Assembly: GCF_013364215.1 (NCBI RefSeq)
Contig: NZ_CP054923.1
Coordinates: 372,001-436,000, forward strand
From: Verrucosispora sp. NA02020
Lineage (GTDB): Bacteria; Actinomycetota; Actinomycetes; Mycobacteriales; Micromonosporaceae
DNA: 64,000 nucleotides
Direction: 5' to 3'
The first letter of the stretch is position 1. Every line of letters begins with the position of its first letter. Positions 16,632 to 60,722 of the stretch are shown here, in pieces. The translations under genes and the position numbers were made by a program. A model generated the notes under the pieces. That model was given only the letters and a program-made list of their open reading frames with translations. It did no database searches and was not told the origin of the DNA.

Positions 16632-16633
16632 CC

Positions 16634-16673
16634 CGTGGGTGGGCCCCGCACGCCGAGGCGGGGCCCACCCACG
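16634..16673 (+). terminator. Hairpin terminator between the two glucanase genes
   Basis: Perfect 16-bp stem (CGTGGGTGGGCCCCGC at 16634-16649 with its complement at 16658-16673) and an eight-base loop, directly after the first glucanase stop. The second glucanase therefore probably has its own promoter in the short space before 16734, although I see no convincing one. Confidence 0.75.
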
Positions 16674-16733
16674 CCGTAAGAGCGCCACCCGGTAACGCCT
16701 CTCCACATCCCCGGAAGAAGGTGTCGATCCCCC

Positions 16734-39781: not shown

Positions 39782-39960
39782 TCGGGTGGTAATTCGGCTC
39801 CGCCAACGACGGCAGTTACGTCTACTACTTTGGTCGTAGGTCGTCTGCCCCCTTCGCGCGGTGCGTGCACCACCTCCGTAGCTACCACTACTGCGGCCCA
39901 TCCCGAATGTTTATGGTGGCCCTGCGACGCTATTTCGACGAGCGGAAGCGAACGGGGGAA

Positions 39961-40626
39961 ATGGTGCAGCAGATGATCTGGCCGGTTATGTCCGCCGAAT
40001 ACCGGCCGGCAGTGCCGGCCGACGCCCTGACGATCGCCGTGGTGGTCGACAACGAGGTGACCCGGCGCGGGGTGGCAGCCGTCGTGCAGCAGGTGCCGGA
40101 GGTGCGGTTACGGGCCGGTCCGGACGGGGCGGACGTGGTCATCGCCTCGCCCCGGGCGCTGAGTCGCGCCGACTCGCTGCTGGGGCACGACGACGGGCGG
40201 CAGCACAAGCTCCTCGTGCTGCTCGACGAGCCGGACCAGGTGGACATCGTGCGCTGGCTGACGCCGGACGGCTACCTCCTGGCCACGGACCTCACCCCGG
40301 AGTCCCTGCACCTGGCGTTGACGCAGGTGGCCGACGGCCAGTTGGTGGTGCCCACCGAGTTGAGCCGGCACCTGCTCAGGTTGGCGACCGGCCGGACGAG
40401 ACGGGACCGCGTCCGGGCACCGGTGCTCACCGCTCGCGAGCGGGAGACGCTGGCGCTGCTCGCCGAAGGGCTGAGCAACCGGCAGATCGGCCGTCGGCTC
40501 GGTGTCTCCGAACACGGCGCCAAAAGGCTGGTGGGCAACATCATGACCAAACTGGACTCACCGAACCGCACGCTCGCGGTGGCGATCGCCCTGCGGGAAC
40601 GGCTGATCCAGGCCGAACCGGCGTAA
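39961..40626 (+). CDS. LuxR-family regulator with a degenerate receiver domain
   Basis: About 221 residues from ATG 39961 (GGGGGAA just upstream; ATG 39907 and 39988 are alternatives). The C-terminal LuxR helix-turn-helix is intact (LTARERETLALLAEGLSNRQ, GVSEHGAKRLVGN). The N-terminal domain has the receiver fold, but the acidic pair is reduced to VVVDN and the phospho-acceptor position holds Ser63 in ADVVIASP, so ordinary phosphorylation is unlikely. Atypical receivers of this kind are known in antibiotic cluster regulators. It faces the biosynthetic operon and overlaps its last gene antisense by 69 bases. Confidence 0.82.
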   Translation: MVQQMIWPVMSAEYRPAVPADALTIAVVVDNEVTRRGVAAVVQQVPEVRLRAGPDGADVVIASPRALSRADSLLGHDDGRQHKLLVLLDEPDQVDIVRWLTPDGYLLATDLTPESLHLALTQVADGQLVVPTELSRHLLRLATGRTRRDRVRAPVLTARERETLALLAEGLSNRQIGRRLGVSEHGAKRLVGNIMTKLDSPNRTLAVAIALRERLIQAEPA

Positions 40627-41337
40627 CCCCGGCCAGGTCCGCACCACCACCCGGTAGTCGGCGGTCCCGGTCAACGCGACCGACGCCAGGTGCCCGTCGC
40701 CGAGCGTGAGATCCCGCACCACCCACGGACCGGGCAGACCCGTCCCACCCCGGCACCGCAGGCCGCGACCGTACGGTTGCGATCCGGCGACCCGTACCCG
40801 GAGTCCCTGCACCAGCCGCCCACCGCTGGCCTTCACGCAGGCCTCCTTGCGGGTCCAGTAGCGGAGGTACCACCAGTCCTGGGCCGGACCGCGAGCGCGG
40901 CCGACCCGGGACGCCTCGCCCGGCGGGTAGAACCGCGTCGCCAGCCGACCCACCGGTGACGGCGTGCCGTCCAGGTCCGGCCGGGCGAGACGCTCCACGT
41001 CGACCCCGACCTCCCGGCCGGTGGTGACCGCCAGCAGGGCCAGGTCGGCCGAGTGCGTCAGGTTGACCTTCGTCTCCGGCTGTCCGAGCAGCGCCGGCTT
41101 ACCGTGCCGCCCCCGGTGCCAGACCACCCCCTCCGGAGGTACGCCGAGATACCCGCCGAGGATCAACCGGCTGGTGGCGTGGGCGTGGACGTAGCGGCGG
41201 CGCACCCGGGCGTCGCCGAGCCGGTCGGCCCGGCGACGCTCGTGCGGGTCCAGCAGGTCAGCCGGATCCGGATCACCGGCGAGTGGACGGCCCAGCGGAA
41301 TCCGCCAGACGTGGACGACGCCGTCGAGCCGCATCAC
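40558..41337 (-). CDS. 4'-phosphopantetheinyl transferase, Sfp type
   Basis: A 259-residue transferase that installs the phosphopantetheine arm on carrier proteins. The motifs GVDVERL (Mg-binding Asp113 and Glu115) and WTRKEACVKASG (residues 161-172) are present, and NLTHSADLA is the CoA-binding His region. It is the last gene of the operon and overlaps the condensation-domain gene at its start (GTGATG). It most likely activates the two ACPs of this cluster. The C-terminal 23 codons are antisense to the end of the luxR gene. Confidence 0.92.
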   Translation of the reverse strand: MMRLDGVVHVWRIPLGRPLAGDPDPADLLDPHERRRADRLGDARVRRRYVHAHATSRLILGGYLGVPPEGVVWHRGRHGKPALLGQPETKVNLTHSADLALLAVTTGREVGVDVERLARPDLDGTPSPVGRLATRFYPPGEASRVGRARGPAQDWWYLRYWTRKEACVKASGGRLVQGLRVRVAGSQPYGRGLRCRGGTGLPGPWVVRDLTLGDGHLASVALTGTADYRVVVRTWPGLRRFGLDQPFPQGDRHRERAVR

Positions 41338-42689
41338 GGTGCTCCGGTGGCCGCCAGGACCCGTTCCTGCGCCGCCACCGTCACCAGCAACTCCTCGATC
41401 TCCCGCAGGATCCCGGCGGCGTCGTCGCGGCTGAGCCGGGCGGTGTCGGCCCGTACGGTCAGCTCCAGCCGGTCCGGCCCGTCCTCGATGACCTTGAGGA
41501 AGAAGGTCAGCTCGTCCACCTCGTACCCGGTGCCGAAGGTGAGTCGGCCGGTCGCCTGCGCGGCACGCAGCCGCTCGGCGGTCACCTCCTCGATCGGGCC
41601 CGTGTCCGGCCCGGCCTGTCGCAGGTCGTTGAAGTAGCAGGACGGGTCGGCGGTGGCGGCCAGCGTGCCGCGCAACGCGCTGATCGCCTGCCGGTCACTG
41701 ATGCCGCTGCGGTACGCCTTCATGGCCGTACCCCAGCAGCTCTTGACCAGCACGGCGAAGTCCTCGGCGGAGACGTCGATCGTGGCCGGCACGTCCTGCA
41801 CCAGGTTGCCGACGTAGCCCCGCAGCTCCGCCCGGTGCCGGTTGCCGGCGATCAGGGTCATCGGCACCCGGTCGTGGCCGGTACGCCGGCCGAGGACCTT
41901 CGCGGTGGCCGTGAGCAGCACGACGGAGCTGCCCGTGGCGTACCGGGTGGCGATGGCGTCCAGGGCCAGCTTGACCGCGCTGGTGCTGAGCGTCGCGACG
42001 GCGTACCGGGGGGACTCCGGCTCCCGAGGGGTGAAGATCGCCGGTGGGGCGGTCGCCAGTTGCTCCCGCCAGTGGGCCAACGATCGTTCCTGGACCCGGC
42101 GCCCCGGTTCGCTCTGCTCGAACTCGGCCAACTCGACCGGCTGCATCGCGGGCGGCGGCAGTTCCTCGCCGGCCAGCAGCCGGGCCAGTTCGGCACCGAT
42201 CACCCGGGTGCCCAGGTAGTCGGTGGCCGCGTGGGACACACAGGTGATCACCACTCGGGGTGCGCCGTCCAGCACACCGACGGCGGGCCGGATCGGCCAC
42301 TGGGTCGTGTGGTCGAACCGGTGCCCCCGGACCTGTGCCTCCAGGTCGTCGACGAGCGCCCGTGGATCGGGATCCTCGGCGGTGGCCTCGCAGATCTCCA
42401 CCGGCAGTTCCCCGGCGGCCATCACCTGCTGCATCAGGTCCCCGGCCGGATCGCGGTGGAAGAGGGTGCGCAGCGCCTCGTGCCGGCGGACCAGGGCGCC
42501 CAGCGCGGCGAGCACGCCCGGCAGGTCCACCCCCTCGGGCACCGGGGTGAAGACCGTCGAGTTGTAGAAGGAGGTGTCCGGCATCTGCCGGTCGATGTCC
42601 ACCCAGATGCTGCGCTGTCCCAGGGTGGCGGGGGCGAGTACGCCCCGCTCGCCGTCGATGCGTACCGCCTGCCGGGTCATTCGCGCCAT
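41334..42689 (-). CDS. Stand-alone condensation-domain protein (NRPS C-domain family)
   Basis: A 451-residue protein of the chloramphenicol-acetyltransferase-like C-domain fold. The active-site motif HHxxxDG appears as SHAATDY, keeping the catalytic His153 and structural Asp157; LGQRSIWVDIDRQMPDTSF and the late FGTGYEVDELTFFLKV segment match the fold. As a free-standing enzyme it could join a carrier-bound acyl chain to an amine such as the decarboxylated amino acid on the second ACP, or form an ester. ATG 42689 has GGAGG seven bases upstream and overlaps the MATE gene stop. Confidence 0.83.
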   Translation of the reverse strand: MARMTRQAVRIDGERGVLAPATLGQRSIWVDIDRQMPDTSFYNSTVFTPVPEGVDLPGVLAALGALVRRHEALRTLFHRDPAGDLMQQVMAAGELPVEICEATAEDPDPRALVDDLEAQVRGHRFDHTTQWPIRPAVGVLDGAPRVVITCVSHAATDYLGTRVIGAELARLLAGEELPPPAMQPVELAEFEQSEPGRRVQERSLAHWREQLATAPPAIFTPREPESPRYAVATLSTSAVKLALDAIATRYATGSSVVLLTATAKVLGRRTGHDRVPMTLIAGNRHRAELRGYVGNLVQDVPATIDVSAEDFAVLVKSCWGTAMKAYRSGISDRQAISALRGTLAATADPSCYFNDLRQAGPDTGPIEEVTAERLRAAQATGRLTFGTGYEVDELTFFLKVIEDGPDRLELTVRADTARLSRDDAAGILREIEELLVTVAAQERVLAATGAP

Positions 42690-44035
42690 GCCGCCGCCTC
42701 CTTCTCGTCCTGGTCGTGGTCGGTGGTCTCCGGGGTCGGGGTGCCCGCTCGTCGGCGGACGAAGAGGACGGTGGCGAACACGGCGGCGATGCCGAACAGG
42801 TTGGCGATCGCGATCGTCCAGTACAGCGGCTCCGGCCCACCGGCGGACCGGGCCAGGTAGCCGCCGACCGCCACGATGCCGCCGAAGTAGACGACGTTCA
42901 GGGCGATCGCGAGTGGCCCGCCGCCGACCTGCTCCAGCACGGTGAGCGCGGCGAGGACCAGGCCCATCAGCACGAAGGTGGGTGCGACGATGCCGAGGTA
43001 GCGGGACGCCTCGGCGGCCACCGCCGGGTCGGCCGCCGTCACCCGGGCCAGCCAGTCCCGGCCGGTCCACACCACCAGCGCGCAGACCACGTAGAACGCG
43101 GCGGTCACCTGGAGGCCGGCGCGCAGCACGCCCGGCATCCGGTGGCTCTCCCCGGCGCCCCGGTACTGGTTGGCGACGATCGCGGTGGCCGCGCCGATCG
43201 CCACACCGGCGACGATCACCACGCTCTGCACCACGTACGCCACCGCGAAGCCGGACACCACGGTCGCGCCGAAGGCGCTCACCACCCAGGTCAGCGCGAA
43301 GTTGCTGGCGAAGATCGCCACGTACGACGCGAAGACCGGCAGACCCACGCCGGCCAGCAGGCCGAACAGGTCGGGTCGCCAGGCCAGCGACGTGCCGGGC
43401 TGCCACACGCCGGTACGCCACAGCAGGTAGCCACCGAGCGCGCTGCCGACCACGCCGGACGCGGCGATGGCGATCGGCACCGACCAGAGGCCCAGGCCCA
43501 GACCGCCGGGCAGGCCGAGCGCGGCCACGCCGACGATCTCCACGGCGGCGGCGGCGAGGAGTACCGCCGCTCCCTCCCGGGGGCGTCCCGCGCCCCGCAG
43601 GGTGGCTCCGCAGAGCACCGACCCGAGCCCGAGCAGCGCGGCCAGGCAGACCCACCGGACGAACCACACGAAGTCGCTCTGCGCCCCCGGGTCGACCCCG
43701 AACAACTGACCCATCCCGGGTGCGGCGAGTCCGAGCAGCAGCAGCACCACGACCGACGCCACGGCGCCGATCCGGGCGAACCCGGCCAGCGCCCGGATGC
43801 GGCTCCCGGCGTCGTCGCCGCTGAGCGCCGACGCGACCTGGTTCGGTACGGCGAGCCCGGCGTGCAGGGCGATGATCACGAACATGATCGGGGTGAACAG
43901 CGAGCGGATGTAGAGCGAGTCGTCGCCCATCCGGCTCATCAGGGCGACCACCACGAGTGGGACCAGGACGCCCACCAGGTCGCCGAGAACCATCGGCGAG
44001 GCCTGGCGCAGCACCTGGCGGCGGTACTCAGTCAT
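42677..44035 (-). CDS. MATE-family efflux transporter
   Basis: A 452-residue membrane protein with twelve hydrophobic helices arranged as two similar halves (first half QASPMVLGDLVGVLVPLVVVAL; second half starting FASYVAIFASNFALTWVV). MATE proteins export drugs and natural products by Na+ or H+ antiport. Embedded in the operon with overlaps at both ends, it is the likely exporter or self-resistance protein for the product. Confidence 0.87.
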   Translation of the reverse strand: MTEYRRQVLRQASPMVLGDLVGVLVPLVVVALMSRMGDDSLYIRSLFTPIMFVIIALHAGLAVPNQVASALSGDDAGSRIRALAGFARIGAVASVVVLLLLGLAAPGMGQLFGVDPGAQSDFVWFVRWVCLAALLGLGSVLCGATLRGAGRPREGAAVLLAAAAVEIVGVAALGLPGGLGLGLWSVPIAIAASGVVGSALGGYLLWRTGVWQPGTSLAWRPDLFGLLAGVGLPVFASYVAIFASNFALTWVVSAFGATVVSGFAVAYVVQSVVIVAGVAIGAATAIVANQYRGAGESHRMPGVLRAGLQVTAAFYVVCALVVWTGRDWLARVTAADPAVAAEASRYLGIVAPTFVLMGLVLAALTVLEQVGGGPLAIALNVVYFGGIVAVGGYLARSAGGPEPLYWTIAIANLFGIAAVFATVLFVRRRAGTPTPETTDHDQDEKEAAAWRE

Positions 44036-45179
44036 CGTCGAACCTGCCCTTGGTCAGTGCGTGACAGACGGTGAGCCGCTGCACGTTGCGGGTGCCCTCC
44101 ATGAACTCGACCCCCCGGGCGTCGCGGGCCAGCTTGTCCAGCCAGGGATGCGCGAACCGGGACCCCGGGCCGAGGATCCGCAACGCCTGCTGGGTGGCCT
44201 CCTCGGCGAGCTGGGCGGCCTGCGCCTTCGCGGCCGAGGCGTAGTAGCCGTTGCGGGCGTCCCGGTCCACCTCGTGAGCGGCGCGCAGGATCAGTTGGCG
44301 TGTGGTGTGTACCCGATGACCCAGCCGGTCCAGCTCGTCGCGACCCCGTCCGGACTGCGATCGAGCATACTCGATGGCGGCCCGCGCGATCCCCAACGCG
44401 ATGGCGGCCACCCCGGGGCGCAGCAGGTTGAACGTCCGCAACGCACTCCACATGCCGCGTGCCGAGGCCGGCAGATGGGCGCCGAGGATCCGGCCGGGCG
44501 CCACCGGTACGCCGTCGAGGCGGATCGCGCTGATCTGCGCGCCCCGCAGGCCGACGGTGTCCAGCGCCTGGGCGTGGTAGCCGGGAGCCGACGTCTCCAC
44601 CAGCACCGCGACCACCCCGAGCGGCCCCGAGCCGGTACGCGCGAAGACCGTGCCCACCTCGGCACGGGTGGCGTTGCCGACGTACCGCTTCTCGCCGTGC
44701 AGGGTCGCCGACCCGTCCGGCGCCTTGCGGAGCTGCGTGCTCAGCGACATCGCGTCGGAGCCGCGTGCCGGCTCGGTCAGGGCGAAGAACGTCCAGGTGG
44801 GACGCGACCGCACCCGCCCGAAATACCACTCCTGCTGGGCCTCGTCGCCGAGCATCCCGACCAGCACGCCGGAGAGCGAGGCACCCGGTGAGGCCAGGAA
44901 CATCCCCGCGTCGCCGAAGGCGATCTCCTCGGCGGCGACCACCCGCTCCACGGCGGTGCTGCCGTAGTACGTGTACCTGCCGATCCGCATCGGGTCCGGT
45001 TGCAGGTGCGCCGGGATCATCGTCTTCCCGACGTAGTCGATCGCGGGCAGGTCCAGGTGCCGATAGACGGTGTCCGGGTCGCGCTCCAGGTCGAAGGCGT
45101 ACGGCCGCAGCTCCGCCGCCCACTCCCGGGCGTGCTCGCGCAGTACCCGCAGCCGGTCATCCGGCTCGATGATCGCCAT
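44028..45179 (-). CDS. Acyl-CoA dehydrogenase family protein
   Basis: A 383-residue flavoenzyme of the ACAD fold, normal length. Visible: FFALTEPARGSDAMSLSTQ (FAD/substrate loop), a beta-domain with GEKRYVGNATRAEVGTVFAR, and the C-terminal helical bundle ending ARDARGVEFMEGTRNVQRLTV, where the EGTRNVQR segment is the FAD/adenine region. In this cluster the acyl group is probably on an ACP instead of CoA, as with other secondary-metabolite ACADs. ATG 45179 is six bases after GGAG and overlaps the small gene upstream by 23 bases. Confidence 0.85.
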   Translation of the reverse strand: MAIIEPDDRLRVLREHAREWAAELRPYAFDLERDPDTVYRHLDLPAIDYVGKTMIPAHLQPDPMRIGRYTYYGSTAVERVVAAEEIAFGDAGMFLASPGASLSGVLVGMLGDEAQQEWYFGRVRSRPTWTFFALTEPARGSDAMSLSTQLRKAPDGSATLHGEKRYVGNATRAEVGTVFARTGSGPLGVVAVLVETSAPGYHAQALDTVGLRGAQISAIRLDGVPVAPGRILGAHLPASARGMWSALRTFNLLRPGVAAIALGIARAAIEYARSQSGRGRDELDRLGHRVHTTRQLILRAAHEVDRDARNGYYASAAKAQAAQLAEEATQQALRILGPGSRFAHPWLDKLARDARGVEFMEGTRNVQRLTVCHALTKGRFDDD

Positions 45180-45723
45180 GGTCAACTCCGTCGAGGTACG
45201 CGTCGGCGAGCAGTTCGGACAGGTGCGCGATCCCGCCCGGCCCGTCGGTCAGGAAGCCGCCGGCACCGAGCAGCCGCAACGACGCGCGGTCGGCGTCGGT
45301 GAGCTGGCGGTGCAGGTAGGCGGCGAGGGAGGGGTCCGGGTCGTGCTCCAGTGCGTCGAGGACCGCGGCGACGCCCTGCTGCTCGGTGACGATCTCGGCG
45401 AGGCTGCCCTGGACCAGTTGCTGCTGGATCAGCGGCACCCCACCGGTCGTCCGGCCGGTCAGGTACTCCCTGGCCTGGTCGAGCAGCCACTGCGAGACGC
45501 CGAGCCGCATCCAGGTCAGGCCGAGCACCCACCCGGCGGGCCGGTCGTCCGTCCCACCGGAGAGGTGCTGCCACCCCGGCGGGCGCAGCCCGTGTCCGCG
45601 CGGCCCGTGCACCGTCTCCGGTGCGCCGGTCGCGGTCAGCAACGCCGTCCAGCCCGCCACCAGGCCGTCCCGGCGGGCCACCGTCCGACAGTGGGCCAGC
45701 GTGACCACCGCCTGCGCGGTCAC
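45157..45723 (-). CDS. Small protein resembling the C-terminal helical part of acyl-CoA dehydrogenases
   Basis: A 188-residue protein without the FAD-loop motifs of full ACADs. It has GLTWMRLGVSQWLLDQAREYL and LIQQQLVQGSLAEIVTEQQG, which follow the helical bundle of the ACAD C-terminal domain, and ends with SLRLLGAGGFLTDGPGGIAH. It cannot hold FAD alone and might form a heterodimer with one of the three ACADs of this operon. The GTG start overlaps the upstream stop (GTGA). Family placement is tentative. Confidence 0.55.
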   Translation of the reverse strand: MTAQAVVTLAHCRTVARRDGLVAGWTALLTATGAPETVHGPRGHGLRPPGWQHLSGGTDDRPAGWVLGLTWMRLGVSQWLLDQAREYLTGRTTGGVPLIQQQLVQGSLAEIVTEQQGVAAVLDALEHDPDPSLAAYLHRQLTDADRASLRLLGAGGFLTDGPGGIAHLSELLADAYLDGVDHGDHRAG

Positions 45724-46592
45724 CACGTCGGGTCCCAGGCGAGCACGGTGAGGTAGCGCAGCACCGGGTCGTACTCGGCCAGCACGGTCCGGCCGGTGAG
45801 CTGCCGGGCGGTGGTCCAGATCCCGGTGCAGAGCGTGCCCCGCCCCACCCGGTGCACCCGCTCGGCCCGCAGCGCGACCTCGGCGGTGACCGGCACGTCG
45901 TAGCCGGCCACCAGCGCGAACGGCCGACCGTCGCGGGCCGAGATCTCGTCCAGGACGTCGACCAGCAGCGCCGCTGCCGCCGCCGGGTCGACCTCGGTGC
46001 GCTGACCGAGCAGCACGCCGGTCTCGCCGGGCGCGGTCGGTCGGAAGGCGTACGCCACCGCGACGTCCTCGGCCGGCACCCGCTCGGTCGCGTCCACCTC
46101 CCAGGGCAGGTTGCGCTGGTCGAGGACGACAAGGGCGGTACGCGCGTCGGCTGCCGCGTCGCGCAGGTGGTCGGCGGCCAGCCGCAGCGCGGTGAACGGC
46201 GCGGTGACGCCCTGGTCGCTGACGCAGAACACGGTCGGGCGACCGGGTGCCGCCTCGACCAGGTAGCACCCGGCCGAGGCCCGGGAGTCGATGTCCGGGG
46301 TGGCGAACGCGAGGACGATCCGGCGCAGCGTGTCCACGCCCGGGGTCAGCTCGGCCACCACCGTCGACGCCATCGTCGTGTACGAGGTGACCTGGGCCTT
46401 GGCGAGGAACTCCGGGTCGTAGGAGCGGCCGTAGGCGCCCACCATGTCGGCGAGGTAGCGGTCCAGGCCGTCGTCCTCGATCGGCCCGTTGCCGCGGAAG
46501 GTGCGGGCGGCGGACGCCGCCGGCCGGACCGGCAGCTCCCGAAGGAGGCCGGTCCGGTCGGCGGCGAGCCGTGGTGCGACTGTGGTGAACAC
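45720..46592 (-). CDS. Degenerate KAS III-like (thiolase-fold) protein
   Basis: A 290-residue protein whose middle and end look like KAS III (SAGCYLVEAAPGRPTVFCVS, then PFTALRLAADHLR where FabH has its nucleophile helix). The active-site Cys is absent: the segment reads SDQGVTAPF. The later PHxxN and GN motifs are also missing. It could be a non-catalytic partner of the intact KAS III encoded at 49595, comparable in concept to PqsB beside PqsC. It starts at GTG two bases after the ACP stop. Confidence 0.6.
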   Translation of the reverse strand: MFTTVAPRLAADRTGLLRELPVRPAASAARTFRGNGPIEDDGLDRYLADMVGAYGRSYDPEFLAKAQVTSYTTMASTVVAELTPGVDTLRRIVLAFATPDIDSRASAGCYLVEAAPGRPTVFCVSDQGVTAPFTALRLAADHLRDAAADARTALVVLDQRNLPWEVDATERVPAEDVAVAYAFRPTAPGETGVLLGQRTEVDPAAAAALLVDVLDEISARDGRPFALVAGYDVPVTAEVALRAERVHRVGRGTLCTGIWTTARQLTGRTVLAEYDPVLRYLTVLAWDPTW

Positions 46593-46594
46593 GG

Positions 46595-46885
46595 TCAGCG
46601 GCTCACGTGCTCGTTGACGTACTCGGAGAGGGTGGTGACGGTCTCGAAGTGCCGCTGCTCCAGGTCGTCCGGGTCGAACTCGGCACCGAGCTCGTTCTCC
46701 AGTTCGAGCAGCAACTCCAGCACGCTGGTCGAGTCGAGCCCGAGGTCGTCGAAGAGCCGGGTGTCCGGGGTGATGGTGGCGACGTCCCGCTTGAGGACGG
46801 CGGCGAGTGCGGTGCGGACGCTGGCCACCACGGCCTCGTCCACCACCGGCGCCGGGGGCTGACCCTGCACAATCGTCTCGGTCAT
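46595..46885 (-). CDS. Acyl carrier protein (first of two in the operon)
   Basis: A 96-residue carrier protein with the phosphopantetheine attachment site Ser52 in DDLGLDSTSVLELL and acidic helix II (LLLELENELGAEFDPDD). ATGA overlap ties its translation to the upstream PLP decarboxylase, and the ATP-grasp ligase lies just before that, suggesting it carries the amino acid they load and decarboxylate. A Pro-rich N-terminal extension (about 15 residues) is present. Confidence 0.9.
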   Translation of the reverse strand: MTETIVQGQPPAPVVDEAVVASVRTALAAVLKRDVATITPDTRLFDDLGLDSTSVLELLLELENELGAEFDPDDLEQRHFETVTTLSEYVNEHVSR

Positions 46886-49586: not shown

Positions 49587-49594
49587 CATGCCTC

Positions 49595-50527
49595 CTAGTG
49601 CTCGAAGACCATGGCGGAGAAGGTCGCGCCGAGCCCGACGGCGACCATCAGGTAGCGGTCGCCCGGCGCGAGCCGCTCCAGTTCCAGGGCCGTCTGGTAG
49701 TTGATGAAGGAGTCGGCGCAGAAGCAGTGGCCGGTCGACGCGACGTTGTCCAGCAGCACCCGGTCCACCGGGTAACCGAGCTGCTTGCACAGCCGCACCC
49801 AGGAGAGCCGGTTCACGTTGTGCGGCAGGATCAGGTCCACGTCGGAGAGCGCGACACCGGCCTGCGCCACCGCCGCCATGACCACCTCGGCCAGACCGTC
49901 CTGATAGATCGCCTCGAACTCGGCGGCCCGCGCGGCGTCCATTCGCAGACCGGCGTTGAACTGCCCGTACGTCCGGGTGGCGTAGCCCAGCAGCCGGTCG
50001 TGGTCGCCGCTGAGCCCGACCAGGACGGCGGCCGAGCCCTCGCCCATGAAGGTGGTGTTCGGGATGAGCTGCGCGGTGGGGGTGAACGCCTTCTCCCCGG
50101 CGAAGACCAGGGCCAACGCGTCCGGGTCCCCGTCGGCGGCCAGCAGCTCACCGGCGAGGTGCACGGCGAGCAGCCCCGACGCGCAGGCGTGCTGGGTGAC
50201 CGCGAACGAGACCGCGTGCTCCAGGCCGAGCGCGGTGCGGACCTGGTGCAGCGGGTTCTCCGGGTACGGCGCCACGGTCTGCAACGTGCGGGCCTGGAGC
50301 ACGTACCGGACCTGGCTCTCGCGTCCGGTCAGCGCGGTCAGCTTGCCGGCCGCGTTGATCATCATCTGGGTCAGGTCGCCGTCCGGGTCGTAGCGCACCT
50401 CGGACAGGCCGTAGAAGCGGCGGAACGTCGCCACCTGCTTCGGGTCCATCGCCAGTCGGGCACCGATCTCCTCGATCGGTACGACCGCCGACGGAAGATA
50501 GGCGGAGACCGCCTCGATGGACGTCAC
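49595..50527 (-). CDS. KAS III-family condensing enzyme with a Cys-His-His active site
   Basis: A 310-residue FabH-like enzyme. The nucleophile is Cys115 in TQHACASGLLAV; His236 lies in LPHNVNRLSW, equivalent to the PHQAN motif of FabH; the usual Asn of the GN motif is replaced by His267 (NVASTGHCFCADSF). The substitution suggests acyl transfer or an unusual condensation in place of the standard malonyl-ACP reaction. It overlaps the preceding ACP gene (GTGA), which probably supplies its acyl substrate. Confidence 0.85.
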   Translation of the reverse strand: MTSIEAVSAYLPSAVVPIEEIGARLAMDPKQVATFRRFYGLSEVRYDPDGDLTQMMINAAGKLTALTGRESQVRYVLQARTLQTVAPYPENPLHQVRTALGLEHAVSFAVTQHACASGLLAVHLAGELLAADGDPDALALVFAGEKAFTPTAQLIPNTTFMGEGSAAVLVGLSGDHDRLLGYATRTYGQFNAGLRMDAARAAEFEAIYQDGLAEVVMAAVAQAGVALSDVDLILPHNVNRLSWVRLCKQLGYPVDRVLLDNVASTGHCFCADSFINYQTALELERLAPGDRYLMVAVGLGATFSAMVFEH

Positions 50528-50802
50528 CGGGCACCCGCGGGTTGTTGTCCGGCGATCAGTTCGGTCAGGTGCGCGGTCAGCTCGTCGATGGTCGGGTGGT
50601 CCCAGACCAGGGTCTCGCTGAGCCGCATGTCCAGGTGCGTCTCGATGTCGCCGCAGAGAGCGAGCGCATAGACCGAGTCCAGGCCGTACTCGGCGAGGCG
50701 GACGGTGGGGTCGATCTCGTCCTCGGGCCGGCGCAGGTACTCCGCGACGCAGCGGGTCAACCAGGAACGCAGGTCGCCCGCGCCCTCGGCGGTGGATGCC
50801 AT
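50524..50802 (-). CDS. Acyl carrier protein (second of two)
   Basis: A 92-residue carrier protein with attachment Ser43 in YGLDSVYALAL and the PCP/ACP-like LVWDHPTIDELTAHL. It differs clearly from the ACP at 46595, so the two carry different substrates; proximity to the KAS III, ACAD and FAAL genes suggests this one takes the fatty acyl chain. ATG 50802 has GAAGG upstream; the gap to the previous gene (47 bases) is the largest inside the operon. Confidence 0.9.
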   Translation of the reverse strand: MASTAEGAGDLRSWLTRCVAEYLRRPEDEIDPTVRLAEYGLDSVYALALCGDIETHLDMRLSETLVWDHPTIDELTAHLTELIAGQQPAGAR

Positions 50803-50849
50803 GTGGGTTTCCTTCCTCGGATGGTTGGCGGTGCGGACTGGCCTCCGGG

Positions 50850-52538
50850 TCATCCCGGCAGCGGTCGGCGGGACAGGTCGAAGCTGCGTCGCTCCGCGTG
50901 CCGGGCGGCCAGTTCCTGATAGAGCGGCTCGCGGTGGTCGCCGGCGCGGTCGTCGCCCGGACGGCCGAGGCTGCGGGCCAGCCGGTCCAGTGCCCCGGTG
51001 ACCCAGGCCGGGTCGTCGTCCCGGGCCAGCCAGACGTTCAGGCAGGCCGAGGCGGCGAGCACGGTGGCGTACCGGGCGGGCAGGTCGAGCACCTCGACGC
51101 GGGCGTCCACGCCCAGGTCGGAGGGGTGCAGCGCGGCCCCCGCCTCGGCGAGGTCGCCGAGTTCGGCCGTGAACTGCCCGGCCAGCCGGCGGAGTCGCTG
51201 CTGCTCCGGCTCGTCGCCGGTGAGCCGGTCCACGGCCGCGCCCAGCGATCCGGCCAGGCCGTCCAGCCCGCCGGCGGAGACCCTTAGCCGCGCGAACGGC
51301 AGCTCGGGCAGTTCCTCGCCGATCCGGAACAGCGCCGGGTCGGCCGGCTCCGGATGCACCCAGCCGCGCCGCGCCAGCAGCGGCACCTGGGGAAGCATGG
51401 TGCCCAGGCAGGCGACACGGGCGGCGTGCCCGAACCCGGCCGGGGCCAGGTCGCGCAGCAGCTTCTGGAAGATCGCGTACCGGCCCTCGCGCAGGTAGAA
51501 GTGCGCCCCGAGCACCAGGGAGAGCTGGTGCATCGCGTCCATCAGCCGCTTGCCCACCAGGTACTTCACGGCGGAGGCGTACATGCTGGTCTGGCCGGGC
51601 AGCAGGTGCAGCGCGCGGGCCGCGACCAGGCCGAGGCTGTCGCAGATCAGCAGATCCAGGTACGCGTCGACGAGCAGCCGCCGGACCTCGGGCTGGTCGG
51701 CGACGCGGTGGCCGTAGAGACGCCGGTCGGCGGCGAAGTCCATGGTCGACCGCAGACCCGAGTCGAGGACACCGGCGAGCATGCTGGGGATCGCGGTGCG
51801 GGTGAGCTGGAACGAGCGCAGCGCGGTCTCGATGCCCTGACCGGGCCGACCCACCACCGCCTCGTCGTCCACCGGGCAGTCGGTGAACTCGATGCCGCCC
51901 AACTGCACGCCGCGCATGCCCACGCTCGGGTAGCGGGCCAGGTCACGCATCACGCCGTCCGGCAGCGTCTGCTTGTCGACCAGGATCTGCGAGTGGCTGC
52001 GGCTGCCCGGCCGCTCGTCGGTGCGGGCCAGCAGCACCAGCCCCCGTGCCCGCGTGACGTTGGTGACCACCTCCTTGCGTCCGGTCAGCCGCCACCCGCC
52101 GGTCGTGCCCGGCCGGGCCGCGAACTCGGCGCGGGAGAAGTCGTTGCCGTGCGCCAGTTCGTGGTAGGCCGAGGCGATCTTCTGGTTGGAGAGCAGCGTG
52201 TCGGCCACCCATCGGGTCTGCGTCGGTGAGCCGGCGGCCCAGACGTTGACCGACGAGATGAACGAGCTGACGCCGTAGCCGAGCCCCAGCGACGGGTCCC
52301 GCCGGAACACCGTCCGCAGCACCTGGATCAGGTCGTCGGCCCCGGCCAGCCGCCCGCCGTGGCGGCGTGGCACGAACTCGGCGTTGAGGCAGTACGCGTC
52401 GAGGGCGCGCTCGGCGGCGCCGAACACCTCGTCCTTCTCGTCGGCCACCAGCGCGGCCGTGCCGCCGAGCGGGTTGCCGTCGTCGGACGGGTCGCCGAGC
52501 AGGTGTTCCAGCTCGTCCAGCCGGGCGGGGGCCGTCAT
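50850..52538 (-). CDS. Long acyl-CoA dehydrogenase-like flavoenzyme
   Basis: A 562-residue ACAD homologue, about 170 residues longer than usual, with a C-terminal helical extension (from about residue 400, including GLDGLAGSLGAAVDRLTGDE). ACAD-type features: AYHELAHGNDFSRAEFAARP in the flavin loop region, a beta-domain with LTGRKEVVTNVTRARGLVLLAR, and the helical region AIPSMLAGVLDSGLRSTMDFA. Extended ACADs of this kind act on ACP-bound chains in some lipid-tail pathways. ATGA overlap with the next ACAD suggests the two are made in equal amounts and perhaps form a heteromer. Confidence 0.8.
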   Translation of the reverse strand: MTAPARLDELEHLLGDPSDDGNPLGGTAALVADEKDEVFGAAERALDAYCLNAEFVPRRHGGRLAGADDLIQVLRTVFRRDPSLGLGYGVSSFISSVNVWAAGSPTQTRWVADTLLSNQKIASAYHELAHGNDFSRAEFAARPGTTGGWRLTGRKEVVTNVTRARGLVLLARTDERPGSRSHSQILVDKQTLPDGVMRDLARYPSVGMRGVQLGGIEFTDCPVDDEAVVGRPGQGIETALRSFQLTRTAIPSMLAGVLDSGLRSTMDFAADRRLYGHRVADQPEVRRLLVDAYLDLLICDSLGLVAARALHLLPGQTSMYASAVKYLVGKRLMDAMHQLSLVLGAHFYLREGRYAIFQKLLRDLAPAGFGHAARVACLGTMLPQVPLLARRGWVHPEPADPALFRIGEELPELPFARLRVSAGGLDGLAGSLGAAVDRLTGDEPEQQRLRRLAGQFTAELGDLAEAGAALHPSDLGVDARVEVLDLPARYATVLAASACLNVWLARDDDPAWVTGALDRLARSLGRPGDDRAGDHREPLYQELAARHAERRSFDLSRRPLPG

Positions 52539-54169
52539 GACAGCTCCTTGAGGTCGTCGGTGAGCCGGTCGAAGGCGGCGGGGTCGGGCCGGTGACCGCC
52601 GATCCGGTCGACGATCAGGGCCAGCGTGGCGGCCAGTTCCGGCCGGGCCGGCTCGGCGGACCACCGGTGCAGCACGGCGGCGGCGGCCAGGCACCACTCG
52701 TACCGTCGGGCCAGGTCGAACGCCTCGACGCCGGCCGTCACGCCCTGCGGCGGCAGGGCGGCCATCTCGTCGTGCAGCCGCTCGGCGGAGTCCAGGACGT
52801 ACGCGGCGAGCCGCACCACGCTCTCCGGCGCCGTCGTGCGGACCTGCTCCACCAGGAAGGGCAGGCTCTGCACCAGGCTGCATCCGGTGCGGGAGAACAG
52901 CTCCAGGCGACCCGGGTCGGTGGGTGCGCCGACCTCGACGCCGTGCAGCCCTGCGCCGACCTCGACGCCCCGCAGCCCGGCGACGTCCCGGACCCGTTGC
53001 CGCCAGCCGGCCACCAGACGCGGGAACTGGGTGATCAGCGAGTGCCGGTTGACGAAGGTGTTGCCGTCGAAGATGCCCACGATGCGGTGGTCCCGCTCCA
53101 GCTTCTGGAACGCGCCGTCGGCGTACACGGTGGTCAGGAACGCGCGGGCGCCGAGCAGCTCGCCGCACCGCGCGATCGCCTCGTCGACCAGGGTCGGCGC
53201 CAGCGCCTTCGCCACCGCCGAGTAGACGCTCATCTCGCCGGTCAGCGCGCCGGCCGCCCGCCCGGCGAACAGCACCACCGACTCCGCCACCAGCGCGGCG
53301 GCGGAGATCTCCCCGAAGCTGCGCCGCACGTGCGGCAACTCGATCAGCCGACGACCGTAGAGCTCCCGCTCCCGCACGAACCGCAGGGTCAGCTCCCGGG
53401 CGTGGTCGACGGCGCCGAGCGAGAGCCCGGCCGCCATCACCCGGGTCAACTGGAGCGCCTTGAGCACGATCTCCAGGCCCGCACCGGGCCGCCCGACCAG
53501 CGCCTCGGGCGGCACCACCGCACCGTCGAAGGCGAGGCCGCTGATGTCCGCGCCCCGGATGCCGTGCGTACGCGCCTTCGGCAACGTCCGGTAGCTGCCC
53601 GGGGCGAGCCGGTCCTTGTCGACCAGGAACAGGCTGTGGCCGCGTGCCCCGGCGTCGGCCGAGGTGCGGGCGAGCACGCAGACCGTCCCGGCCCGGGTGG
53701 CGTTGTTGATCGGCCACTTCTCGCCGTCCAGGCGGTACCCGTCCGGGCACTCGGTGGCGGTCAGCTCGCCGGCCACCAGGTCGCTGCCGTGCCCGCGCTC
53801 GGTCAGCGCCCAGGAGACCACCGCACCGGCCCGGATCCGCGCCCCGAGCCGCTCGGCCCGTTCCGGGTCACCGGCCACCCAGACGCAGACCGCGCCCAGG
53901 TAGGTCTTGGCGTGCGCGATCGCGGCGGTCAGGTCGTGCCGGGCGATCGTCCGGACCACCTCGACGAGCTGCGTGTGATCGGTCGACGCGCCGCCGAAGC
54001 GCGCCGGCACGTACCAGTCGGGAACCCCCAGCTCGTCCAGCAGACGTACGGCGTCGGTGGGGAACGTCTCGGTCCGGTCCAGCTCGGCGACCCGGTCCGG
54101 GCGGAACGGCTCGGCCGTGGCCAGGGCGGCGTCCAGCAGGCCCGGCGAGATGGTGGTGACGGCGCTCAT
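52535..54169 (-). CDS. Long acyl-CoA dehydrogenase-like flavoenzyme, partner of the preceding one
   Basis: A 544-residue ACAD. The FAD/substrate loop VVSWALTERGHGSDLVAGEL, the beta-domain DGEKWPINNATRAGTVCVLART and the helical region RVMAAGLSLGAVDHARELTL are intact, and FDGNTFVNRHSLI follows where the GTxxxQ segment usually lies. Like its partner it has a C-terminal extension of about 150 residues, with a short internal repeat (GLRGVEVGAGLHGVEVGAP). It is the more canonical of the pair and may be the catalytic subunit. Confidence 0.83.
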   Translation of the reverse strand: MSAVTTISPGLLDAALATAEPFRPDRVAELDRTETFPTDAVRLLDELGVPDWYVPARFGGASTDHTQLVEVVRTIARHDLTAAIAHAKTYLGAVCVWVAGDPERAERLGARIRAGAVVSWALTERGHGSDLVAGELTATECPDGYRLDGEKWPINNATRAGTVCVLARTSADAGARGHSLFLVDKDRLAPGSYRTLPKARTHGIRGADISGLAFDGAVVPPEALVGRPGAGLEIVLKALQLTRVMAAGLSLGAVDHARELTLRFVRERELYGRRLIELPHVRRSFGEISAAALVAESVVLFAGRAAGALTGEMSVYSAVAKALAPTLVDEAIARCGELLGARAFLTTVYADGAFQKLERDHRIVGIFDGNTFVNRHSLITQFPRLVAGWRQRVRDVAGLRGVEVGAGLHGVEVGAPTDPGRLELFSRTGCSLVQSLPFLVEQVRTTAPESVVRLAAYVLDSAERLHDEMAALPPQGVTAGVEAFDLARRYEWCLAAAAVLHRWSAEPARPELAATLALIVDRIGGHRPDPAAFDRLTDDLKELS

Positions 54170-55938
54170 CGGGCCACCCCGGCCAGCTCACGATCCCGGT
54201 CGGTGGCGTCCAGGTGGGAGCGGACCTCCGGGGTGAGGTCGGCGTACGTGCCGGTGAGCGAGCCCTCCTGGAAGGCGCGACGGACCGCGACCCGCTGGAT
54301 CTTGCCGCTGGTGGTCCGGGACACCCCGCCCGGGCGGACCAGCAGCACGCTCGCCTCCACGCCGAACTCGCGGGACAACCGGTGCCGCACCGCCGCCGAG
54401 ATCCGGGCCAGCTCCTCCGGCGTCGCCCGGCCGGCCCGTACCTCGTGCACCAGGACCACCTGCTCCTCGGGCACCGGCACGCTGAACGCGGCTCCGACAC
54501 CGAGCGCCAGCGCGGGATGCACGGTGCGCGCCTCGGCCTCCAGGTCCTGCGGATACAGGTTGCGGCCCCGGATGATCAGCAGCTCCTTGATCCGCCCGGA
54601 GATGTACAGCTCGTCGTCGAGGCGTACCCCGAGGTCGCCGGTGCGCAGGAAACCGCGCTCGCCACAGGCGGTCTCCGCGTCGAAGACGGCGGCCGTGGCC
54701 TCGGGGTTCTCCCAGTACCCGCGCGCGACGCTCGGTCCGCGCAGCCAGATCTCGCCCACCTCACCGTCGGGGAGCAGCACGTGGCGCTCCGGGTCGACGA
54801 TGCGGATGTCCATCTCGGACGTCGCGCCGCAGCCGACCAGGTCACGGGTGGCCTCGTCGGTGTCCGGCCCGACCGGTCGGGCCTGCCCCCGGCTTAGGTG
54901 CGCGGCGTCGACCCGGGTGATGCGGGGAAGCCGGTACTGCCCGACGCAGGAGACCGCAAGCGTCGCCTCGGCCAGCCCATAGCCGGGGCCGACCGCCTCC
55001 GGCCGCAGGCCGTAGGGCGCGAACCGGTCGCGGAAGCGGGCCAGCGTGCTCGCCTGGACCGGCTCGGCGCCGTTGACCGCGACCCGCCAACGGGACAGGT
55101 CCAGGCCGGCGAGCCTCTCCTCGGCGATCCGGTTCAGGCACATCTCGTAGGCGAAGTTGGGTGCCGGGGAGATCTGCACGTCGAAGCGGTCCACCAGGAA
55201 CAACCAGCTCTGCGGGTGCCGCAGGAACACCGAGGCGGGCATGTGCACGGTGGTGCTGCCGACGTACAGCGGGGAGAGGAAGAGCCCGATCAGGCCGAAG
55301 TCGTGGTGCATCGGCAGCCAGCCGCCGTGCCGGGCGTCCGACGGCGCGCCGAGGATGCGCTGGTAGACCCCGGCGTTGTCGGCCAGGTTGCCGTGCGTCA
55401 CCACGACGCCCCGGGGCTGGCTGGTGGACCCGGAGGTGTACTGGAGGAAGGCGATCCGGTCCGGGTCGTCGGGCAGGGCACGGAACTGTCCGACGTCGGG
55501 CAGCGCGGTCGCGTCGGTCACCAGACGCGGCAGGTCGCCCACCCCGGCCGCCTCCGCCCAGGTGGCCACGTCACCGGCCACCCGCTCCTCGGTGAGCAGG
55601 GCGGCGGCCCGCGCGTTGCGGACGATCGCGGTGAGCCGCTGGCTGCGGTGCTGCTGCCCGTCCGGCACCGGCACCACGATCGGGATCACGCCGGAGTACA
55701 GGCAGCCGAGGACGGCGAGGGCCAACTGCGGGCCCGGCGGATAGAGCAGCATCGCCCGGTCGCCGGCGGCCAGCCGGTCCTGGAACAGCGCGCCGACCCG
55801 GCGGGCCGCGTCGTGGATCTGGGCGTACGAGTAGCTGATCGGGGCGTCGTCACGCATCGGGTCGGCCACGTAGGTGAACGCGGTCCGCTCGCCGAACTGC
55901 GCGACGTTGACCTCCATCCGGGCACTGAAGCTGGTCAC
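54166..55938 (-). CDS. Fatty acyl-AMP ligase (FAAL)
   Basis: A 590-residue adenylate-forming enzyme. The ATP loop is QYTSGSTSQPRGVVVTH (about 166-182); GGWLPMHHDFGLIGLFLSPL is diagnostic for FAALs compared with acyl-CoA ligases; ISGRIKELLIIRGRNLYPQD is the hinge/A8 motif and SGKIQR holds the catalytic Lys. It should activate a free fatty acid and transfer it to an ACP, probably the one at 50524. GTG start overlapping the ferredoxin gene. Confidence 0.9.
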   Translation of the reverse strand: MTSFSARMEVNVAQFGERTAFTYVADPMRDDAPISYSYAQIHDAARRVGALFQDRLAAGDRAMLLYPPGPQLALAVLGCLYSGVIPIVVPVPDGQQHRSQRLTAIVRNARAAALLTEERVAGDVATWAEAAGVGDLPRLVTDATALPDVGQFRALPDDPDRIAFLQYTSGSTSQPRGVVVTHGNLADNAGVYQRILGAPSDARHGGWLPMHHDFGLIGLFLSPLYVGSTTVHMPASVFLRHPQSWLFLVDRFDVQISPAPNFAYEMCLNRIAEERLAGLDLSRWRVAVNGAEPVQASTLARFRDRFAPYGLRPEAVGPGYGLAEATLAVSCVGQYRLPRITRVDAAHLSRGQARPVGPDTDEATRDLVGCGATSEMDIRIVDPERHVLLPDGEVGEIWLRGPSVARGYWENPEATAAVFDAETACGERGFLRTGDLGVRLDDELYISGRIKELLIIRGRNLYPQDLEAEARTVHPALALGVGAAFSVPVPEEQVVLVHEVRAGRATPEELARISAAVRHRLSREFGVEASVLLVRPGGVSRTTSGKIQRVAVRRAFQEGSLTGTYADLTPEVRSHLDATDRDRELAGVAR

Positions 55939-56153
55939 CGTTCACGCTCCTGCTGAGTCGTCTGAATCGAGATCGCTCGGTTGGGGCACAGGTGTGCGGC
56001 CTCCCGCACGGCCGGGACCCGGTCCGGCTCCGGCTCGGCCACCAGCAGCACGACCGTCCCGTGGTCGTCCTCGTCGAACACCTCCGGCGCGAGCCGGACG
56101 CAGTGCCCGGCGCCGAGACAGCGCTCCGCCGCGACGGTGAGCAGGACCGTCAT
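55935..56153 (-). CDS. Ferredoxin, single-cluster (3Fe-4S type), P450 partner
   Basis: A 72-residue ferredoxin with CLGAGHC, then HLCPNRAI: three cysteines in the pattern of the [3Fe-4S] ferredoxins that pair with actinomycete P450s. It lies four bases downstream of the P450 stop and overlaps the FAAL start, so it is the dedicated electron donor. No ferredoxin reductase is in the window. Confidence 0.92.
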   Translation of the reverse strand: MTVLLTVAAERCLGAGHCVRLAPEVFDEDDHGTVVLLVAEPEPDRVPAVREAAHLCPNRAISIQTTQQERER

Positions 56154-56157
56154 CGGG

Positions 56158-57351
56158 TCACCACCGCACCGGCAGCCGGCCGAGCCCGAACACCACGCCC
56201 TGCTTGACCGGGACCTGCTCGACCGGTACGGCCAGGTGCAGCCCCGGGATCCGGGTGAACAGCGCCCGCAGCGCGATCAGCAGCTCCAGCCGTCCCAGGT
56301 GCTGGCCGACGCACTGGTGGATGCCGAAGCCGAAGGTCAGGTGACCGCGTGCCGCCCGCCGTACGTCCAGCACGTCGGGGTCCGCGAACCGTTCCGCATC
56401 CCGGTTGGCCCCGGGGAGCAGCAGCACGATGCCCTCCCCGGCCCGGATCAGCTCGCCGTCCACCTCCAGGTCGGCGGTGGCGACGCGGACCGTGGCACCG
56501 GTGAGCGACAGGTACCGCAGCAGCTCCTCGACCGCGTCCGGCCACCGCTCCGGCTCGGCCCGCAACAGGTCGAGCTGGGTACGCTCGGTGAGCAGAGTGA
56601 GCACGCTCATGCCCAGCGTGTTGACGGTGATGTCCTGTCCGGCGAGCACGATGGCGATGCCGAGGCCGGTCGCCTCCTCGACGGTCAGCTCGCCCTCGTC
56701 GATCCGCTCGACCAGATCCCGCAACTGGCCGTCCCGCAGCGTGTCCCGACCCTCGGTGAGCAGGTGGGTCAGGTAGCCGGTCATCGACCGGACCGGATTG
56801 AACCGCTTGTAGGTCACCGTCTGGAAGTGCGCGACGTCCGCCTCCGGCACCCCGAGCAGCCGACCCAGGACCTCCGCGACCAGCGGCTTGGCGAACACGT
56901 CGAGCAGGTCCACCGGCGGCGACTCGGCCAGCATCCGGTCCAGGTAGGCGTCGGTGTACCGGACGATCTCCGGTTCCCAGGCGCTGATCCGCTTGTAGGT
57001 CAGGCTGGGCAGCACCGCCCGCCGCTGCCGCGAGTGCGCCGGCGGATCGGTCCGCAGCAACGCCTCGATGGTCGCCGAACCGCTCTGCCGCAGCCCCGCC
57101 ATGCCGGGCACCGGCACCGGCATGGCCGGCTGCCGGACGTCCACACTGGTGTCCGGGCTGGCCAGGATCGCCCGGGTCGCCGCGTACCCGGTGACGACCC
57201 AGACCGGACGGCCGTCGAACAGCCGCGCCCGGGTGACCGTCCCGCGCTCCCGCAGCTCCCGGTATTCCTCCGGCGGCTGGTACGGGCACTGACGCTTCAG
57301 GGGCAGCTCGGGTAGCTGCGTGATGTCTTCCGTGGCCACGGCTCTGCTCAC
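56158..57351 (-). CDS. Cytochrome P450, first gene of the biosynthetic operon
   Basis: A 397-residue soluble P450. The I-helix oxygen-activation motif is VLAGQDITV (237-242, with Asp in place of the usual Glu-Thr pair but a Thr retained), the K-helix ExxR is in VEELLRY, and the heme loop FGFGIHQCVGQHLGRLEL has ligand Cys347. GTG 57351 gives the usual length and has AGAGGGG upstream; ATGs at 57384 and 57426 would add low-complexity residues. Bacterial class I type with the ferredoxin encoded next. Substrate unknown, probably the acyl chain or final scaffold. Confidence 0.92.
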   Translation of the reverse strand: MSRAVATEDITQLPELPLKRQCPYQPPEEYRELRERGTVTRARLFDGRPVWVVTGYAATRAILASPDTSVDVRQPAMPVPVPGMAGLRQSGSATIEALLRTDPPAHSRQRRAVLPSLTYKRISAWEPEIVRYTDAYLDRMLAESPPVDLLDVFAKPLVAEVLGRLLGVPEADVAHFQTVTYKRFNPVRSMTGYLTHLLTEGRDTLRDGQLRDLVERIDEGELTVEEATGLGIAIVLAGQDITVNTLGMSVLTLLTERTQLDLLRAEPERWPDAVEELLRYLSLTGATVRVATADLEVDGELIRAGEGIVLLLPGANRDAERFADPDVLDVRRAARGHLTFGFGIHQCVGQHLGRLELLIALRALFTRIPGLHLAVPVEQVPVKQGVVFGLGRLPVRW

Positions 57352-57379
57352 CGATACCGCCCCTCTCTCCCCCGCTTGT

Positions 57380-57422
57380 CTCATCGAAGACGAGTCTGCG
57401 GAGGTGAGAGAGTTTCGATAAG
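57380..57422. promoter_or_regulatory. Possible regulator site upstream of the biosynthetic operon
   Basis: CTCATCGAA (57380-57388) and TTCGATAAG (57414-57422) form an inverted repeat with eight of nine pairs and 25 bases between, in the leader of the P450 gene. It lies between the terminators after the Ig-repeat gene and the operon start. Regulatory role is only inferred. Confidence 0.3.
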
Positions 57423-57450
57423 ACACCGCCGGGCGGCGGAAAGAGCGCCC

Positions 57451-60502: not shown

Positions 60503-60722
60503 CGTCTCCTCCTCGGAAACCACAAGAAAAGTGGTGCGGAGAAAGGACACCATCGGATCGGCAGACGTGCTGCCCGGTGTCCCCACGCATCTGAGGGCGG
60601 CAGCATAGCAAGAAGCCGATCTTGGTGGTGCCCCGTTGCCGCTGGTTAGCCGGCTCTCCGCGTGGCGCGGGACGGCACGGACGGGCCGAGAGGATGTCGG
60701 TCGTCGTGGTTAGGGTGCTGCC

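Follow-up and report, generated by a model that had tools for sequence, protein, structure and literature searches.

How could an actinomycete assemble a lipid amide without a nonribosomal peptide synthetase (NRPS)? The question is raised by a sixteen-gene operon of Verrucosispora sp. NA02020 that lies in the window analysed here, a stretch of 64,000 nucleotides (positions 372,001 to 436,000 of contig NZ_CP054923.1, assembly GCF_013364215.1). The operon is real, conserved and NRPS-free. We consider it reasonably probable that it makes an N-acyl-dehydro-beta-alanyl lipid amide, in which dehydro-beta-alanine (Dba) is formed on a carrier protein.

In the proposed scheme, a fatty acyl-AMP ligase (FAAL) would adenylate a fatty acid and load it onto a first acyl carrier protein (ACP1), where the acyl-CoA dehydrogenases ACAD1 and ACAD2 would desaturate it. 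An ATP-grasp enzyme would join the beta-carboxyl group of L-aspartate to a second carrier, ACP2, and a pyridoxal phosphate (PLP) decarboxylase of the BtrK type would next strip the alpha-carboxyl group to give beta-alanyl-ACP2. An enzyme similar to beta-ketoacyl-ACP synthase III (KAS III), together with a KAS III-fold partner, would take the acyl chain over from ACP1 and attach it to the amino group of beta-alanyl-ACP2, forming an amide and no C-C bond. ACAD3 and the ACAD-like protein ACAD-C would desaturate the N-acyl-beta-alanyl-ACP2 to N-acyl-Dba-ACP2, and a free-standing condensation enzyme would release this chain onto a soluble nucleophile, probably an amine. Finally, a cytochrome P450 with its ferredoxin would hydroxylate the product, and a MATE transporter would export it.

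Gene content and conservation of the operon

The sixteen minus-strand genes span positions 40558–57426. From the 5' end they encode the P450, ferredoxin, FAAL, ACAD1, ACAD2, ACP1, KAS III, ATP-grasp ligase, PLP decarboxylase, ACP2, KAS III-fold protein, ACAD-C, ACAD3, MATE, condensation enzyme and a 4'-phosphopantetheinyl transferase (PPTase) (Table 1). The original prediction, made from the window alone, had described sixteen leftward, mostly overlapping genes, and this was borne out, as 13 of the 15 junctions overlap (12 if ACP1 begins at its second ATG). Its gene list held for the three full-length ACADs but left out the fourth, C-terminal-only ACAD-like protein, and two identities are corrected here: the gene after ACP2 encodes a degenerate KAS III fold, and the one after the P450 a ferredoxin. 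The Pfam scan took in 15 of the 16 proteins, ACP2 being left out, and gave a family match for every frame except the KAS III-fold protein, which had no match in Pfam or NCBIfam.

The enzyme families, the kinship to BtrK, the residue patterns and the conservation of the cassette described below can be read directly from the sequences. All sixteen genes are found in identical order in Micromonospora phaseoli (locus L001), at 77–91% identity by tblastn, and in a further genome (G035) at 91–98%, so the arrangement is not a chance one. With sixteen open frames conserved to this degree, a decayed or silent operon is extremely improbable.

Table 1. Operon genes and the adjoining regulator, with positions in the window
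Feature	Position	Strand	Basis	Proposed role or remark
LuxR-type regulator	39865..40626	+	Pfam GerE	Convergent; kept in L001 (73%) and G035 (89%)
4'-Phosphopantetheinyl transferase	40558..41337	-	Pfam ACPS	Predicted for the ACPs
Free-standing condensation enzyme	41334..42689	-	Pfam Condensation; 451 aa	Proposed release enzyme
MATE transporter	42677..44035	-	Pfam MatE	Probable exporter
ACAD3	44028..45185	-	Pfam/NCBIfam	Proposed N-acyl-beta-alanyl-ACP desaturase making Dba
ACAD-C, C-terminal-only ACAD-like	45157..45726	-	Pfam PF00441; 189 residues	AF2 pLDDT 88.8
Degenerate KAS III-fold protein	45720..46598	-	Predicted fold	Proposed partner of the KAS III-like enzyme
ACP2	46595..46885	-	Reading frame, DSL motif, homologues	Putative Asp/beta-Ala/Dba carrier
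PLP decarboxylase, BtrK type	46882..48219	-	Best PDB matches BtrK 7ru7/2j66	
ATP-grasp ligase	48216..49589	-	Pfam PreAtp-grasp and ATP-grasp	Best PDB match an amino-acid ligase, weak
KAS III-like acyltransferase	49595..50527	-	Pfam; Cys and His kept	Proposed amide-forming enzyme
ACP1	50524..50853	-	Pfam PP-binding	Predicted fatty acyl chain carrier; start may be a later ATG
ACAD2	50850..52538	-	Pfam/NCBIfam	ACAD1 paralogue that lacks the EGT glutamate; a partner or another desaturase
ACAD1	52535..54169	-	Pfam/NCBIfam	Predicted acyl-ACP dehydrogenase of the lipid cassette
Fatty acyl-AMP ligase (FAAL)	54166..55938	-	Pfam AMP-binding; NCBIfam FAAL models below cut-offs	Proposed ACP1 loader
Single-cluster ferredoxin	55935..56153	-	Pfam Fer4_15/Fer4_13	Probable P450 partner
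Cytochrome P450	56158..57426	-	Pfam PF00067	Predicted tailoring enzyme

The two carrier-bound halves

The original prediction had foreseen two branches, each on a carrier: a chain loaded by the FAAL and desaturated, and an amino acid that loses a carboxyl group while bound to an ACP. Both find support. Among solved structures, the best relative of the decarboxylase is BtrK (319 bits), followed by diaminopimelate decarboxylase (176 bits); its top NCBIfam models, TIGR03099 and lysA, were both under cut-off. With an ACP gene adjacent, the decarboxylase is proposed to act on a carrier-bound amino acid, and by analogy the ATP-grasp ligase is proposed to load the beta-carboxyl group of L-aspartate on ACP2. 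The components of a Dba module, namely a loader, a free ACP, a BtrK-like decarboxylase, a KAS III and an ACAD, all stand in this one locus, with the ATP-grasp enzyme in place of a VinN-like loader.

GTDB species genomes were scanned with the ATP-grasp protein, which gave 50 loci; genes were then called in them and the proteins clustered into families. Thirty of these loci, of varied context, hold the full set of seven families (KAS III, ATP-grasp, decarboxylase, ACP2, KAS III-fold, ACAD-C and ACAD3). The complete cassettes are mostly adjacent and in the same order, with rearrangements in L011, L016 and L039; ACP2 relatives were called in 38/50 loci. Because ACAD3 and ACAD-C travel with the amino-acid branch in those 30 loci, the amino-acid half is probably dehydro-beta-alanine, an identity absent from the original prediction. 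The glutamate of the EGT motif of ACAD3, as required of a Dba desaturase, is retained in 35/35 sequences. When the ACAD-C model was searched with Foldseek, all of the best 50 of 380 matches were acyl-CoA dehydrogenase-superfamily chains (TM by query about 0.4–0.5). With no room for the other ACAD domains, ACAD-C is probably a partner subunit, proposed for ACAD3.

An aspartate-type substrate fits the gene context, since methylaspartate-mutase-family genes adjoin the cassette in 6/50 loci (one of the six was tested and matched Pfam Met_asp_mut_E). These loci (L031, L032, L034, L038, L041 and L042) may make an alpha-methyl-Dba unit. Most of them also have a gene or domain resembling AsnA (by a scan of one or two members). 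Alternatively, the amino-acid half could be a 4-aminobutyryl unit derived from glutamate, as in butirosin, or an unsaturated form of it, and BtrK, the nearest solved relative, is indeed named L-glutamyl-[BtrI] decarboxylase. The methylaspartate-mutase neighbours speak for aspartate instead, as do the published Dba systems, which use aspartate. The decarboxylase BolN, proposed to act on it, is likewise reported to be similar to BtrK (PMC7756342). We regard the 4-aminobutyryl unit as quite unlikely.

The contexts of the cassette vary further. Diaminopropionate genes (SbnA or SbnB) are present in 22/50 loci and beside 11 of the 30 complete cassettes; one of each was tested (SbnA from L049, and SbnB from L046, where the cassette is incomplete), and both scored over the NCBIfam cut-offs. 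By eye, apparent nucleotide-sugar dehydrogenase/epimerase genes lie beside cassette genes in L003, L026 and L050, the products of which are possible glyco-conjugates. Outside Actinobacteria, L043 (Cohnella laeviribosi) holds a relative of the cassette with KAS III, ATP-grasp, decarboxylase, ACP and ACADs; no KAS III-fold partner was found there by tblastn.

For the lipid half, the 13 PDB matches of the FAAL include FadD23, FadD32 and other FAAL-type chains. A whole-genome scan found no AMP-binding match in the window besides the FAAL, so the window holds no NRPS module with an adenylation (A) domain. Both the FAAL kinship and the FAAL-ACAD-ACAD-ACP order are those of lipid-initiation cassettes: rotihibin RthH-I-J-K (PMC8552735), taromycin and malacidin (PMC9113097) have the same order. 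For the taromycin/malacidin ACAD pair, a review considers the 2 and 4 double bonds likely to be its work (PMC9113097), and by analogy ACAD1 and ACAD2 would set the double-bond number of the window's chain at a 2-enoyl or 2,4-dienoyl stage. In these systems the acyl chain passes from its ACP to the starter condensation domain of an NRPS, whereas the window has no NRPS module. The EGT motif of ACAD3 reads DGN or DGS in ACAD1 and is lost in ACAD2 (six pairs compared), so one of the two may be a partner subunit. ACAD2 matches at E ≤ 1e-60 were found in 15 of 160 same-genus genomes, its own included, 10 of them at 48% identity or more. The pair is portable: near G067, G133 and G121 it lies in polyketide synthase or NRPS surroundings, with no Dba cassette in the stretches read.

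The genome carries more than one such locus. A near-identical direct tandem duplication of 149 kb encloses the whole window (167679–317074 versus 317073–466687 of contig 1), with 7 mismatches in the aligned parts and shifts in offset of about 60 and 280 bases; the assembly thus holds two copies of the operon. This is either a recent amplification or an assembly artefact; G035 shows one ACAD2 match. A third, diverged cassette lies at 2869563–2876446 of contig 1 (ATP-grasp 46% by BLAST). Its locus (2869563–2882339, L091/L092) contains a short PPTase similar to AcpS, a free condensation enzyme of 580 aa and ABC genes and is adjoined by a carbamoyltransferase-like gene (by eye); no FAAL was seen in the 40 kb read around it.

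On the P450 side of the operon, the neighbour at 57539–60586 has a match in L001 and none in the stretch of G035 that was read. At the PPTase end, the LuxR, UbiA and response-regulator genes are kept in both. The LuxR gene is a possible regulator and may itself belong to the operon, because LuxR genes of the same cluster adjoin the cassette in L008, L019, L026 and L050. Elsewhere in the window, two adjacent genes (13755–21020) encode alpha-1,3-glucanase catalytic and F5/8 type C domains, with a solute-binding protein gene (8404–10014) upstream.

Joining and release

The KAS III cysteine is present in 40/40 sequences covering the site and the histidine of the PH motif in all 41 sequences. The column of the FabH asparagine holds a histidine in 40/40, and an aspartate follows five residues on, again in 40/40. 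The Cys-His-Asn triad of the C-C-forming FabH type is thus missing. This bears on a reading without Dba, in which the enzyme would condense the aminoacyl unit with malonyl to give a cyclic imine or dione. The KAS III fold and the active cysteine would suit such a reaction, but the asparagine column and the operon genes scanned, among which no malonyl transferase, ketoreductase or dehydratase is named, make it very improbable. CerJ and ChlB3 are KAS III-like acyltransferases with a Cys-His-Asp triad. The same triad is reported for the KAS III-like enzyme AfcL (PMC12186527).

The original prediction had the condensation domain join the two halves, which is probably a misassignment. The KAS III-like pair, lacking the FabH triad, is the more likely joining enzyme, and the condensation enzyme probably serves in release. 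In NRPS loci such as L009, L028 and L033 the cassette comes with the KAS III gene, and the stretch covered, about 10 kb on each side, gave no call for a free-standing condensation enzyme; published proposals give the N-acylation to a KAS III, namely BolM/BolP (PMC7756342) and AutS/OleH (PMC11204786). Should the condensation enzyme instead link the ACP1-bound acyl group to the decarboxylated amino acid carried by ACP2, the KAS III-like enzyme would act later, in storage and release, as AfcL does in vitro, where it accepts beta-alanyl chains in thioester form and transfers them to a Lys thioester (PMC12186527). The condensation enzyme is also constant in the clusters compared below, with its catalytic histidine kept. 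In view of these NRPS loci and the published assignments, we hold this order of events to be unlikely and keep to amide formation by the KAS III-like pair.

The condensation enzyme is a single domain in a gene of its own. Its HHxxxDG motif reads SHAATDY, with the second, catalytic histidine kept, and its 15 PDB matches include 4znm, which we take to be SgcC5; SgcC5 and VibH are free-standing condensation enzymes. In a tree of 12 free enzymes and 24 NRPS domains, one branch with a support of 0.99 parts the NRPS domains from the free enzymes.

Eleven clusters of the window's type, with a FAAL and termed type A, were compared (the window, G035, L001, L002, L008, L019, L020, L044, L048, G044 and G137). 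FAAL and the condensation enzyme are present in 11/11, ACAD1, ACAD2 and ACP1 together in 9/11, MATE in 10/11 (the G044 flank was not read far enough), PPTase in 10/11 (the L002 contig ends) and P450 with ferredoxin in 3/11. In L019 and L048 the condensation enzyme sits upstream (flanks read). Genes similar to class III aminotransferases, Gfo/Idh dehydrogenases and inositol monophosphatases adjoin six of the eleven (L002, L019, L020, L048, G044 and G137; L048 was scanned, the others compared by BLAST), and a NodB-type deacetylase is also found in three of these (L002, L020 and L048). Genes of this kind would be expected where an amino-cyclitol or amino-sugar is made, which points to an amine as acceptor in those six clusters; none was seen beside the window's operon, whose product structure is predicted and whose acceptor would probably be an amine. 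Two clusters of conserved proteins, c39 and u61, had no Pfam match (one member each scanned; L002, L019, L020, L048, G044 and G137; L075, L077, L079, L080 and L106–L109). The P450 scored 169.9 bits against the pentalenolactone synthase-like NCBIfam model (cut-off 700); it would act as a tailoring hydroxylase, and the MATE protein would serve as exporter.

Several points weigh against the scheme as a whole. The pathway is a prediction from genes, and the choice of the ligase between aspartate and glutamate rests on context, BtrK itself acting on glutamate. The ligase can also serve something else, because nine Amycolatopsis loci (L004, L005, L007, L012, L022, L024, L025, L030 and L046) have it without decarboxylase and KAS III; they carry type II ketosynthase/chain length factor-like genes, a ketoreductase, ACP, SbnA, SbnB and NRPS, and the amino acid loaded by their ligase may escape decarboxylation. 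With regard to the KAS III pair, hhalign of the two families gave a probability of 1%, and the kinship comes from fold only. The putative nucleophile site of the partner is Cys in 6/27 sequences, with a PH dipeptide after residue 150 in 3/27, so its degeneracy is not uniform. In AFC-BC11 the roles are reversed, with acylation of the amine by the FAAL itself and release of the chain by a KAS III-like enzyme (PMC12186527). The condensation-domain tree was uninformative on donor or acceptor, and the 18 A-domain codes recovered from diaminopropionate NRPS loci, partly gapped, included none that was assignable and were not used.

A wider reading, which we put forward only tentatively, is that a portable actinobacterial Dba cassette forms the amide through a heterodimer of KAS III and pseudo-KAS III and, in type-A clusters, supplies a free condensation enzyme, which would couple N-(2,4-dienoyl)-Dba chains to amines other than amino acids (resembling aminocyclitols or aminosugars in the six clusters named above). 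The products would be enamide lipids of a class made without an NRPS and not described before. If so, a single gene block would predict a single reactive unit, the N-acyl enamide, in many clusters of actinomycetes and would be a sequence handle for finding such compounds. Being a compact, NRPS-free version, the window is a good place to test amide formation by the KAS III pair and acceptor choice by the condensation enzyme.

Relation to known pathways

In butirosin biosynthesis, BtrJ, BtrI and BtrK achieve ATP-grasp loading and carrier-bound decarboxylation of glutamate to gamma-aminobutyrate, which is transferred to the aminoglycoside. The window would share the ATP-grasp loading and the carrier-bound decarboxylation, and its decarboxylase is kin to BtrK; to our knowledge, butirosin involves no ACAD, FAAL or KAS III.

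In the bolagladin proposal, a loader puts aspartate by its beta-carboxyl group on a free ACP, BolN decarboxylates it, the KAS III BolM or BolP N-acylates and the ACAD BolQ desaturates; deletion of bolQ gave beta-alanine analogues in place of Dba, and deletion of bolN was not rescued by beta-alanine feeding (PMC7756342). The bol cluster of Burkholderia gladioli resembles the window in its BtrK-like decarboxylase, free ACP, ACAD and KAS III pair, in which Ser and Thr replace Cys. It differs in its VinN-like adenylation loader, citrate-primed fatty acid and tetramodular NRPS.

The enamidonins were named the sole other Dba compounds as of 2020 (PMC7756342) and contain Phe-Dpr-Dpr-Gly, where Dpr is diaminopropionate (PMC11204786). 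Enamidonin, autucedine and olenamidonin have an acyl-Dba starter, the acyl group of which the KAS III homologue AutS/OleH is proposed to attach on an ACP (PMC11204786). Their Dpr residues match the SbnA/SbnB genes beside complete cassettes, a context that would link the Dba cassette to this family. The likeness proposed is one of chemistry and gene context, and these compounds are cyclic lipopeptides, unlike the product proposed for the window. Two other candidates were set aside. The cassette is present in Streptomyces nigrescens HEK616 (L028), the producer of streptoaminal and 5aTHQ, but the nine-gene stm cluster is described with two ketosynthase/chain length factor sets and an aminotransferase, a content that the cassette does not fit. 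The work on solanimycin concerns dehydro-alpha-alanine, not dehydro-beta-alanine (PMC10204066).

The original prediction did not recognise the set from any characterised pathway. This stands for the sixteen-gene combination, no description of which was found in the excerpts of open-licence literature searched (subscription papers not covered), but half of the set is explained by the published Dba pathways (PMC7756342, PMC12186527). The novelty is a new combination of known modules, from which a lipid amide of a new kind may result. In the AFC-BC11 pathway, AfcQ, AfcK and AfcP turn aspartate into carrier-bound beta-alanine in vitro (PMC12186527). The afc cluster of the Burkholderia cepacia complex shares with the window a FAAL, a carrier, a decarboxylase (AfcP), several KAS III-like enzymes and Dba, and its description mentions no condensation-domain NRPS (PMC12186527). 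It alone makes a Dba trimer with an A-domain loader (AfcQ) and one carrier, with direct acylation of the amine by the FAAL and release to Lys, whereas two ACPs, ACAD-type desaturases, a free condensation enzyme and a P450 are found only in the window.

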